Below are positions 6,323-15,945 of a DNA stretch of 64,000 nt, piece by piece. The translations under genes and the position numbers were made by a program. Below the pieces are notes generated by a model that worked only from the letters and a program-made list of their open reading frames with translations, was not told the DNA's origin and searched no databases. Every line of letters begins with the position of its first letter. The first letter of the stretch is position 1. The stretch comes from Pseudomonas sp. ADAK18 (GTDB lineage Bacteria > Pseudomonadota > Gammaproteobacteria > Pseudomonadales > Pseudomonadaceae), in contig NZ_CP052859.1 in assembly GCF_012935695.1 (NCBI RefSeq), positions 3,079,001 through 3,143,000 on the forward strand. Reading direction: 5' to 3'.

Positions 6323-8197
6323 TCAGAACTTCTTGATGTCAGCCTGGGTTTCCAACTGCTTACGATAGGCAGCAAAGTCCTGCTGACCCACACGCGAAGC
6401 GAGGAAGCGGCGGTATTGAGCCTTTTCTTCGTCCGTCGGAGCAGCGGCTTCGTTGACATCGTTCAGGCGCACGATCATCAGGCTACCGTCGGCCAGCGTC
6501 ACGCTGGTGAAGGTGGGCTTGTCCTTGGCCGCAGGCTTAGGCATGCGGAACAGGGCTTGCAGCACTGCTGGATCGATCCCTTCCTGGCCACGGGTGGCCG
6601 CTTCGGTGACTTTCCAGCTCTGACCATCGATCACTTGATTCAACGGAGTCTTGCCATCACGCAAGCTGGCAATCAGTTCATCCGCATGAGCCTTGGCCGC
6701 AGCGATAGCGCGCTCCTTGGTCATTTGCGCACGGATGGCAGTCGCAACGCTTTCCAGCGGCAGCTGAGCAGGCTTCAGGTGCTCTTTGGCACGCAGCACC
6801 ACGATGGTTTCCGGATCCAGGTCGATGGCGGTGCTGTTGGCACCCTCGTCCAGAACTTCCGGGCTGAACGCTGCGGTGACTACCGCACGGTTTGCTGCAA
6901 TGCCATCACCACCGTTACGGCCAAATGGCTGGGAGGTGTGCACGGTCAGCTTCAGGTCCGACGCTGGCTGGGCCAGGTCGGAAGCTTCGAATGCAGCATC
7001 TTCCAGTTGTTTGGTCGCTTCAACGAAACGCTGTTCAACCTGCTGAGTTTTCAGCTCGTGGGTCAGCTTGTCTTTCAGGCTGGCAAACGATGGCACTTGC
7101 GGTGCTTCAACTCCCAACAGCTTGATCAGGTGCCAGCCGAAGGTGGTACGTACCGGCGCCGAGACCTGATCCTTGTTCAAGGCATACAGGGCTGTTTCGA
7201 AGGCAGGGTCATAGACGCCAGGGCCCGCGTAACCGAGGTCACCGCCACTGTTCGCCGAACCTGGATCCTGGGAGAACTCCTTGGCCAAGGCTTCAAAGCT
7301 TTCGCCCTTGGCCAGGCGTGCCTGGATTTCCTCGATCTTGGCCTTGGCTTGCGCCTCGTTCACCTTGTCGTTGACTTCAATCAGAATGTGCGCGGCACGA
7401 CGCTGTTCAGCGAGGTTGGCGGTTTCTTTCTGATACAACGCCTGCAGCTCATCGTCCTTGACCGTGACCTGGTCGAAGAAGGAAGCCTTCTTCAGCTCCA
7501 GGTAGTCGATGACCACCTGGTCGGGGGTCATGAACTCTTTGGCGTGCTGGTCGTAGTAAGCCTTGACCTCGTCGTCGGTGAGTTTCACCGCCGCAGGATC
7601 AGCCTTGATGTTGACGGTGGCGAAATCGCGGGTCTGTTTTTCCAGACGCGCAAATGCCAGGACCTGGGCGTCGGTGACAAAACCACTGCCGGCGATGCCT
7701 GCGCGAACCTGGCCGATCAGCATTTCCTGAGTCAGCATCTGACGGAATTGCAGGCGGCTGTAGCCCAGTTGACGGATCACCTGGTCAAAACGCTCGGCGT
7801 TGAACTGGCCATCAACCTGGAATTCCGGTGTCTGCAGGATCACTTGGTCCAGTGCAGCCTCGGAGAAAGCGAATTTCGAATCGGCGGCGCCTTGCAGCAG
7901 CAGCTTGCGATCGATCAAACCTTTGAGAGCGGCTTCGCGCAGCAGTTTTTCATCCAGCAAGGAAGCATCGAAGTCCTTGCCCAACTGTTGCATCAGTTGA
8001 CGACGTTGCATGTCGACGGCCTGGCTCAGCTCGTTTTGGGTGATTTCTTCACCGTTGACCTTGGCCACGTCCTGCTTGTTGTTGGTCGAAGCCTGAAAAA
8101 TAGCCTCGATACCGGTGAACGCCATCAATGCGACGATGATCCCGATAATGGTCTTGGCAATCCAGCCTTGTGAATTGTCCCTGATATTCTGCAGCAT
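6323..8197 (-). CDS. ppiD: periplasmic peptidyl-prolyl isomerase / chaperone PpiD (SurA-N type)
   Basis: The protein has 624 aa, the usual PpiD size. It has an N-terminal membrane anchor (about residues 15-33, IIGIIVALMAFTGIEAIF), a SurA-like N-terminal chaperone region, one parvulin rotamase domain (about residues 265-365; RRAAHILIEV..., GGDLGYAGPG, FGWHLIKL) and a C-terminal chaperone region. PpiD assists folding of outer-membrane and periplasmic proteins at the Sec exit. The order lon-hupB-ppiD is standard in Pseudomonas. A terminator and a tRNA-like RNA separate it from hupB, so it probably has its own promoter within 8198-8267. Confidence 0.93.
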   Translation of the reverse strand: MLQNIRDNSQGWIAKTIIGIIVALMAFTGIEAIFQASTNNKQDVAKVNGEEITQNELSQAVDMQRRQLMQQLGKDFDASLLDEKLLREAALKGLIDRKLLLQGAADSKFAFSEAALDQVILQTPEFQVDGQFNAERFDQVIRQLGYSRLQFRQMLTQEMLIGQVRAGIAGSGFVTDAQVLAFARLEKQTRDFATVNIKADPAAVKLTDDEVKAYYDQHAKEFMTPDQVVIDYLELKKASFFDQVTVKDDELQALYQKETANLAEQRRAAHILIEVNDKVNEAQAKAKIEEIQARLAKGESFEALAKEFSQDPGSANSGGDLGYAGPGVYDPAFETALYALNKDQVSAPVRTTFGWHLIKLLGVEAPQVPSFASLKDKLTHELKTQQVEQRFVEATKQLEDAAFEASDLAQPASDLKLTVHTSQPFGRNGGDGIAANRAVVTAAFSPEVLDEGANSTAIDLDPETIVVLRAKEHLKPAQLPLESVATAIRAQMTKERAIAAAKAHADELIASLRDGKTPLNQVIDGQSWKVTEAATRGQEGIDPAVLQALFRMPKPAAKDKPTFTSVTLADGSLMIVRLNDVNEAAAPTDEEKAQYRRFLASRVGQQDFAAYRKQLETQADIKKF

Positions 8198-8264
8198 GCG
8201 TCCCCCAGAAACGGTTGAACTTCAAAATTAGGCAACCGTGGAGCGTGGGTAGAGTCCGGATAGA

Positions 8265-8293
8265 AGAAAGGCGCATCCGAGGATGCGCCTTCT
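8265..8293 (-). terminator. rho-independent terminator downstream of the tRNA-like RNA
   Basis: An 11-bp perfect stem (8268-8278 with 8281-8291, 2-nt loop) is followed on the minus strand by TTCTTCTA. It lies 7 nt past the CCA end of the tRNA-like element, so the RNA gene appears to have its own end signal before ppiD. Confidence 0.8.
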
Positions 8294-8299
8294 CGTAAC

Positions 8300-8376
8300 T
8301 GGCGGAGCGGACGGGGGTTTGAACCCAACACCCCCGGCGTGGCGACCCGATGGATACTTGGGTCAACTGCCGCTCC
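8300..8376 (-). ncRNA. tRNA-like RNA (77 nt, acceptor stem plus encoded CCA, irregular arms)
   Basis: Read on the minus strand, a 5' GGAGCGG (8370-8376) pairs perfectly with CCGCTCC, followed by a discriminator G and an encoded CCA (8300-8302). The total length of 77 nt is that of a tRNA. A T-loop-like TTCAAAC is present, but the T-stem has mismatches. A tRNA-style anticodon fold would put GCC (Gly) in a loop without U33. The D arm does not fold normally. A competing fold has two strong hairpins, GACCC/GGGTC and GGGGGT/ACCCCC. A terminator follows at once. It could be a degenerate tRNA, an odd tRNA or a tRNA-mimic small RNA processed from the hupB transcript. Confidence 0.5.
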
Positions 8377-8428
8377 GCTGCCAGGTCAGACCTGCGTCCA
8401 ACCCGGATGGGTAAGGCTTGAACGAAGC

Positions 8429-8701
8429 TTAGTTAACCGCTTCTTTCAGGGCTTTACCGGCTTTGAAGCCTGGCTTTTTGGCAGCGGCGATTTGCAGCGC
8501 CTTGCCGGTCTGTGGGTTACGGCCAGTGCGAGCTGGACGATCGGTCACAGAGAAAGTACCGAAACCAACCAGTACCACGGAGTCGCCGGCCTTGAGAGCG
8601 CCAGTGACGGATTCGATTACTGCGTCCAGCGCACGGCCAGCAGCGGCTTTCGGGATATCAGCAGATGCAGCGATAGCATCAATCAGTTCCGACTTGTTCA
8701 C
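8429..8701 (-). CDS. hupB: DNA-binding protein HU-beta
   Basis: The protein has 90 aa, the exact HU length. The translation [11 protein letters not shown] with a GTG start at 8699-8701 matches the known HU N-terminus. An AAGGGGA Shine-Dalgarno lies upstream. The DNA-binding arm motif GFGTFSV...[12 protein letters not shown] is intact. HU is an abundant nucleoid protein that bends DNA. It lies downstream of lon with 146 bp between them, enough for its own promoter, and upstream of the tRNA-like RNA. Confidence 0.97.
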
Positions 8702-8847
8702 TCTAAGTCCCCTTATATCTATTGAGTATGATTCTAAGTTTTTTGGTGAAAGCAAAAACCAGTGCTGAATGGCCTACAGACACTTAAGAGCCGCTTTATA
8801 ACAAGGGCTCTAAAAAGCTGTCAAGGAAGCCACCAGGCTTAAACGTA

Positions 8848-15412: not shown

Positions 15413-15488
15413 TGGGGTGGACGAAGGGGATCGAACCCTCGACAACGGGAGTCACAATCCCGTGCTCTACCAACTGAGCTACGCCCAC
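15413..15488 (-). tRNA. tRNA-His (GTG), promoter-distal copy
   Basis: Cloverleaf with acceptor GTGGGCG, D arm AGCTCAGTTGGTAGAGC, anticodon loop TTGTGAC with GTG, T arm GAGGGTTCGATCCCCTTC and encoded CCA. A G at -1 (15489) can pair with C73, as needed for tRNA-His. Identical in sequence to the copy at 15761-15836. Confidence 0.97.
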
Positions 15489-15619
15489 CATATTGCTTTT
15501 TTGTGCTGGAGCAGCCTGATGATTGCCCCGCAACAGTTGAACCCGTGATCAAAAAAGCCGCTGATCACTGCTTTTTCAATCTATTCCGTCAAAGCCGACA
15601 GCCCTGACAAAATTGAATT

Positions 15620-15704
15620 TGGTGCGGATGAAGAGACTCGAACTCTTACACCTTGCGGCGCTGGAACCTAAATCCAGTGTGTCTACCAATTCCACCACAT
15701 CCGC
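15620..15704 (-). tRNA. tRNA-Leu (TAG)
   Basis: 85-nt class II tRNA. Acceptor GCGGATG, long variable arm, anticodon loop TTTAGGT giving TAG, T loop TTCGAGT and encoded CCA. It lies between the two tRNA-His copies. Confidence 0.97.
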
Positions 15705-15721
15705 GCGTGAAGCTGTTAAAG

Positions 15722-15758
15722 CAAAGGCGCCAGACTATTAATCTGGCGCCTTTTTAAA
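15722..15758. terminator. terminator-like inverted repeat inside the tRNA operon
   Basis: A nearly perfect 11-bp stem (GGCGCCAGACT... with ...ATCTGGCGCC) is flanked by A and T runs. It is a close copy of the repeat at 15368-15406, and both sit just downstream of a tRNA-His. If active, it would reduce expression of the distal Leu and His tRNAs. Confidence 0.7.
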
Positions 15759-15760
15759 TA

Positions 15761-15836
15761 TGGGGTGGACGAAGGGGATCGAACCCTCGACAACGGGAGT
15801 CACAATCCCGTGCTCTACCAACTGAGCTACGCCCAC
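15761..15836 (-). tRNA. tRNA-His (GTG), promoter-proximal copy
   Basis: Same sequence as the tRNA-His at 15413-15488, including the G at -1 and encoded CCA. Flanking bases and the downstream inverted repeat are shared too, which points to duplication of a tRNA-plus-hairpin unit. Confidence 0.97.
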
Positions 15837-15868
15837 CATATAGCGCTACTTGTGCCAAAGCTGCCTAA

Positions 15869-15945
15869 TGGCGCACCCGGCAGGACTCGAACCTGCGACC
15901 ATCCGCTTAGAAGGCGGATGCTCTATCCAGCTGAGCTACGGGCGC
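15869..15945 (-). tRNA. tRNA-Arg (TCT)
   Basis: 77-nt cloverleaf. Acceptor GCGCCCG, D arm AGCTCAGCTGGATAGAGC, anticodon stem-loop CCGCCTTCTAAGCGG giving TCT, T loop TTCGAGT, encoded CCA. First gene of the tRNA operon. Confidence 0.97.

Follow-up and report, generated by a model that had tools for sequence, protein, structure and literature searches.

The 64,000-nt stretch of Pseudomonas sp. ADAK18 analyzed here (hereafter "the window") includes hupB and ppiD, read in succession on the minus strand and separated by a gap that contains a leader hairpin, a 77-nt tRNA-like element, and a terminator-like hairpin (Table 1). The last of these is labeled a terminator because of its strong fold, U-rich tail, and conservation, a simple terminator scan having failed to list it. 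It begins 5 nt after the CCA in the minimum-energy fold, where the sequence-only reading of this stretch had given 7 nt. Between the CCA end and the ppiD start (positions 8198-8302), a span that takes in the terminator, most alignment columns are at least 80% conserved across 170 sequences, unpaired spacer included, with the loop of an inverted repeat in the ppiD leader as the main exception. By eye, the hupB side of the gap is less conserved. A promoter scan returned 0 sites in 8150 to 8800, but since it likewise missed the hupB and ppiD promoters, this says little.

Table 1 Features of the hupB-ppiD region, in window coordinates.
Feature	Coordinates	Strand	Basis
hupB coding sequence, GTG start, 90 aa; upstream gene	8429..8701	minus	Sequence; hupB end located in 306 of 310 loci tried
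Leader hairpin H1, CCGGGTTGGAC-GCAG-GTCTGACCTGG, 11 bp, between hupB stop and element	8381..8406	minus	Fold; 98.7% of cells paired (64 sequences)
Outer stem, 5' strand (9 bp), GCGGAGCGG: acceptor plus two leader bases	8370..8378	minus	Fold and pairing tests
Relic of hupB-linked tRNA-Asp(GUC) gene, 77 nt including CCA	8300..8376	minus	Intact tRNA-Asp in same slot of relatives; locus-specific G2:C71
Inner hairpin 1, GACCC/GGGTC, 11-nt loop	8344..8364	minus	99.7% of cells paired; both-side changes 0
Inner hairpin 2, CGGGGGT/ACCCCCG, 11-nt loop; weakest helix	8312..8336	minus	91.3% of cells paired; both-side changes 0
Outer stem, 3' strand (9 bp), CCGCTCCGC: acceptor 3' strand, discriminator G, and first C of CCA	8302..8310	minus	Fold and pairing tests
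Terminator-like hairpin with U-rich tail	8262..8294	minus	Fold z -5.4; kept across 170 sequences
ppiD start (first 150 aa; start codon at 8197); downstream gene	7748..8197	minus	Sequence

Read from 8376 to 8300, the element has the form GGAGCGG...CCGCTCC-G-CCA, and a perfect 7-bp acceptor stem, a discriminator G, an encoded CCA, and a length of 77 nt are all present as first described. The acceptor stem and CCA end are those of a tRNA, while the features required for decoding have been lost: the D arm and U33 are absent, as had also been claimed, and the T arm is rearranged. In its minimum-energy fold the 77-mer forms the acceptor stem and two hairpins (-35.1 kcal/mol, z -2.3, with 3 of 200 shuffles equally good). 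The three-way structure originally presented as a competing fold thus exists, but as the favored one and not as a mere competitor. When the leader is included, the stem extends to 9 bp and an 11-bp hairpin forms at 8406-8381, the fold of leader plus element reaching z -3.7. The tRNA-like element is real, and its matches across the genus (see below) make it more than a chance resemblance. Its exact length is an incidental detail: among members of the window's clade the element measures 71-78 nt, and the window holds one base more than its nearest relatives.

ARAGORN and Rfam, the latter among the checks proposed with the original description, did not recognize a cloverleaf. Neither ARAGORN nor the Rfam tRNA family (RF00005) called a tRNA at 8300-8376, nor did one appear at E up to 10, and no Rfam family reached its gathering score at the window locus. 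A known Rfam small RNA was discarded as a candidate, the lone low match being to SpF59, an unrelated family, at E = 3, which looks like chance. Scanning the loci of 40 relatives against Rfam yielded a single match, a tRNA in L041. Origin from a phage or plasmid was also rejected (0 matches in either collection at E 1e-5), as was an island integration site: no insertion was seen among the hupB-ppiD gaps listed, within a scope of up to 700 nt beyond hupB that a large insertion could escape, the check having failed in 4 of 310 loci (L144, L202, L221, and L225). The intact acceptor, discriminator, and CCA would be compatible with a non-canonical tRNA of anticodon GCC that is still charged and used. 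We regard this as extremely improbable given the missing ARAGORN and Rfam calls, the absent D arm and U33, the replaced T arm, a would-be anticodon that varies in some close relatives of the window, and the intact tRNA-Asp copies elsewhere in the genome.

To place the element in a wider context, we turned to the same gap in other genomes. A 161-bp query searched against the genus found matches in 396 of 398 genomes, the two misses being incomplete assemblies (77% and 86%), and in distant genomes the match may rest largely on the terminator and ppiD-leader block. We examined 174 gaps in total, a non-random set weighted to the window's lineage and made up of the window, 29 near relatives, 80 further genus-search matches, 60 loci found through PpiD, and four further Pseudomonadaceae loci. 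An intact 77-nt tRNA-Asp(GUC), identified by exact sequence, occupies the same slot before the same terminator in 11 of these gaps and is lacking from the other 163. Intact examples include P. borbori (L171), P. segetis (L232), and P. farris (L135), and relics occur in P. fluorescens, P. koreensis, P. poae, and P. lundensis, these names being drawn from a pattern search that required an exact 3' acceptor strand and covered the matches listed only. Across 306 gaps, a set containing some genomes twice, ARAGORN called Asp(GTC) in 34 and other anticodons in 13, some of them degenerate. Beyond the family, 16 loci from elsewhere in the order were covered, and in 6 of them (5 family codes) ARAGORN detected a tRNA-Asp in the hupB-ppiD slot, so an intact hupB-linked tRNA-Asp is most likely the ancestral state.

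The second base pair of the acceptor stem identifies which tRNA-Asp gene gave rise to the element. Further tRNA-Asp matches besides the hupB locus were found in all 30 genomes searched. G2:C71 is present in 11 of 11 intact hupB-linked copies fetched, as against C2:G71 in every tRNA-Asp read across the 19 of 19 other fetched loci. The element in the window has G2:C71 whereas a tRNA-Asp read elsewhere in the same genome has C2:G71, which indicates descent from the hupB-linked gene and not from another tRNA-Asp. Positions 2:71 also rule out both a copy made from the other tRNA-Asp genes and an acceptor maintained through conversion with them, while the interior of some intact copies was possibly restored by conversion. 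From these comparisons we conclude that the element is a relic of the hupB-linked tRNA-Asp(GUC) gene, which makes the initial suggestion of a decayed tRNA both correct and specific. The relic shares its slot, G2:C71 acceptor stem, and CCA with the intact genes of P. borbori, P. segetis, and P. farris, but in the window's clade about one third of the interior differs, the arms are rearranged, and the whole is unrecognized as a tRNA.

This loss appears to have occurred repeatedly in Pseudomonas. On a 132-row tree built from the end of hupB and the start of ppiD, the intact and relic states change seven times, and at least four of these changes are forced by branches with at least 95% support. 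A faster 258-row tree gives 14 changes, or 9 when loci from other families are excluded; many forks in the trees are weak. If the intact gene is ancestral, most of these changes should be losses, with some interiors perhaps restored by conversion. Many of the Pseudomonas sampled no longer have the tRNA, yet its outer stem is frequently still there as a hairpin before the hupB terminator, whether preserved or re-formed through matched changes.

Within the window's clade, the two ends of the relic are much better preserved than its middle. Relative to intact tRNA-Asp, the acceptor strands of the 59 clade members, a group defined by sequence pattern that includes one outlier (L047), are 99.3% and 98.5% identical and the interior 65%, in best-fit alignments that flatter the interior. 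GCCA is whole in 58 of the 59. The sequence-only reading had made its case depend on stems being conserved in close relatives, and they are: in an alignment of 64 relatives, the set that also underlies the percentages for the inner and leader hairpins in Table 1, pairing holds in 99.6% of the acceptor cells. Shuffles never reach the observed changed cells, paired cells, or covariation score (0 of 500), whereas pairs with both-side change show no excess (486 of 500 shuffles reach the observed number), and the only such change falls in leader hairpin H1 (one pair, 11 cells), with 0 in the helices of the relic across the 64 aligned sequences.

The covariation evidence comes from deeper lineages. 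In some, the interior has been reduced to a short loop, yet in most cases the strand located equally far before the terminator continues to find a partner upstream. Taken together over 41 representatives, outer-stem pairing of each locus with its own partner strand amounted to 683.5 versus 559 +/- 19, above all 20,000 permutations, and on a second measure 0 of 20,000 permutations reached the own sum (48 representatives). Single loci are weaker than the sum, with a median share of equally pairing swaps of 0.13 in one test (8 of the 41 representatives over 0.5) and 0.39 in a second (48 representatives). L022 and L044, out of register in the fixed-position test, were left in, and the pairing tests ignore relatedness.

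To guard against collecting look-alikes alone, loci were also sampled through PpiD: among 80 genomes, chiefly ones whose DNA match was weak or unlisted, 74 had a PpiD match, and 60 of those gaps were fetched. At least 8 of 9 outer-stem pairs form in 42 of these 60 loci, compared to a mean of 11.2 and a maximum of 19 when the upstream sequence is shuffled, and all nine form in 23 loci (shuffled mean 0.9, maximum 5). With the strand shifted by -6 to +12 nt, 5 to 21 loci remained at 8 of 9 or better and 0 to 3 at 9 of 9. Whole-gap folds gave a similar picture: in 44 of the 60 loci, seven or more of the 9 bases had partners upstream, against a mean of 29.5 and a maximum of 35 in 20 swapped-tail permutations. 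The outer stem is not always required, however, since 18 of the 60 loci fall short of 8 pairs and 16 miss 7 of 9 in the folds.

Individual loci illustrate how pairing is kept. In L262, GCGGAGCGG/CCGCTCCGC is replaced by GCGTGACGG/CCGTCACGC, i.e., three consecutive double changes, and L261 and L267 display further double changes in stems formed by their folds. L280 and L304 were rejected as additional cases, their whole-gap folds not forming the stem. More generally, the 3' strand is altered in 34 distinct cases among the PpiD-found loci, and 24 of these still reach at least 8 of 9 pairs. Compensatory changes, which the sequence-only reading had proposed to look for in many Pseudomonas gaps, are thus seen across lineages, albeit uncorrected for relatedness, and pairing kept through matched changes in this way would be characteristic of a structured 3'-UTR element.

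These data also bear on whether the relic is a plain pseudogene, i.e., a decaying tRNA-Asp copy whose ends survive by lag or by adjacency to the conserved terminator and ppiD-leader block. Spacer and terminator are at least 80% conserved in almost every column of the 170 sequences, and the 3' acceptor strand and CCA could simply be carried along; simple decay would also fit the 18 PpiD-found loci in which the outer stem is absent or weak and the relic helices free of both-side change in the window's clade. Adjacency does not extend to the 5' strand, however, which lies outside the conserved block, and the pairing retained by most altered 3' strands and the permutation result (0 of 20,000) also speak against mere decay. 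We consider a plain pseudogene rather unlikely.

The sequence-only reading had also raised a mimic processed by RNase P and a stable small RNA. In this alternative, RNase P or RNase E would release a discrete, stable species of ~76 nt, or a longer small RNA derived from the hupB 3' UTR, that a ProQ- or Hfq-type chaperone might bind. The strong fold of leader plus element and the near-invariant GCCA of the window's clade are in line with such a product, and a precedent may exist in Bacillus cereus, where the pseudo-tRNA tRNA-Other has been proposed as a tRNA-like structural element within a larger regulatory RNA (PMC3399842, available part). On the other hand, the discriminator and the first C of CCA are tied up with leader bases in the 9-bp stem, which covers the region of the would-be RNase P cut and should disfavor cleavage at +1. 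In addition, the interior varies greatly in sequence from lineage to lineage. Of the 45 most decayed relics, 7 have GCCA whole and 38 do not; this and the extended stem weigh mildly against the idea that an RNase P or CCA role is being maintained. A discrete small RNA thus remains unlikely in our assessment.

The explanation we favor, with a probability of roughly 0.72 for the whole, is that a former tRNA-Asp gene became a structural hairpin within the hupB 3' UTR. It builds on the observed homology, locus-specific descent, repeated loss, and excess of outer-stem pairing. The ancestor would have carried a tRNA-Asp(GUC) gene between hupB and ppiD, before the terminator. In Pseudomonas, this copy would have been redundant because other tRNA-Asp genes exist, and its tRNA function would have been lost in several lineages, including that of the window. 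The acceptor stem, extended to 9 bp by two leader bases, would often have been kept or rebuilt while the interior diverged, rearranged, or shrank. Presumably transcribed together with hupB, the relic stem would then form one hairpin of the hupB mRNA 3' UTR alongside the leader hairpin and the terminator, shielding or defining the 3' end of the message, and it probably serves stability, protection, or processing of that end. The retained unit accordingly looks like a hairpin at a fixed position in the hupB 3' UTR, and not like a tRNA. A broader version of this proposal, a genus-wide conversion of a tRNA gene into an mRNA 3'-UTR module, in which the body was lost repeatedly, the acceptor stem was captured as a covarying hairpin needed by the hupB message, and a graded series leads from intact tRNA to bare hairpin, is possible but tentative, and we hold it to be short of probable.

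In stabilizing hairpins and intrinsic terminators of mRNA 3' UTRs, pairing rather than sequence is kept just upstream of the transcript end. The relic hairpin resembles these in the pairing kept and differs in its descent from a tRNA acceptor stem. Among the systems compared, and judging from the available part of the source, the nearest functional precedent is the B. cereus tRNA-Other, likewise a former tRNA in a structural role, but one that flanks a pathogenicity island and has a Trp anticodon, whereas the Pseudomonas relic follows hupB and retains mainly its outer stem across lineages (PMC3399842). Predicted pseudo-tRNAs are also on record in the same genus: a study of mature tRNAs in P. 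fluorescens SBW25 names one likely case, Cys-GCA-2 (PMC7661048), and the P. simiae 2-36 genome note reports one whose type and place are not given (PMC4319604). Unlike the relic, the former is of Cys type and the latter untyped, and neither is linked to hupB in the parts of these sources available. The SBW25 study names the public data set GSE144791, and its authors state that they screened de novo contigs built from unused reads for tRNA reads in substantial numbers. Among the open-licence papers listed by the literature searches, no title or abstract opening dealt with a tRNA or relic between hupB and ppiD, and neither hup nor ppiD comes up in the available part of PMC5870498.

It is easy to write pseudo-tRNAs off as debris, but the part retained here looks defined by pairing, not sequence, and a single locus presents intact, half-decayed, and hairpin-only states across the sampled species of one genus. 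If the proposed function holds, the locus would provide a concrete route from tRNA gene to mRNA structure and a caution against reading a tRNA-like function into every tRNA-like end with CCA. Control of the hupB 3' end in Pseudomonas also becomes directly testable here.

Several further observations were made along the way. Some hupB-linked relics called by ARAGORN have altered anticodons, including Tyr GTA, Asn GTT, and others of Ala, Thr, and Arg type (L143, L148, L151, L184, L194, L049, L084, L119, and L125), and annotation pipelines might list extra tRNAs at such loci. Elsewhere in the window, ARAGORN and Rfam both identify an ordinary tRNA cluster (His, Leu, His, Arg) at 15413-15945 on the minus strand. 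Finally, the inverted repeat of the ppiD leader, ACGGTTG...CAACCGT (8211-8239, minus strand), lies shortly before the ppiD start; by eye, the relatives L297 and L298 preserve its pairing with changed letters, which suggests a ppiD 5'-UTR hairpin.
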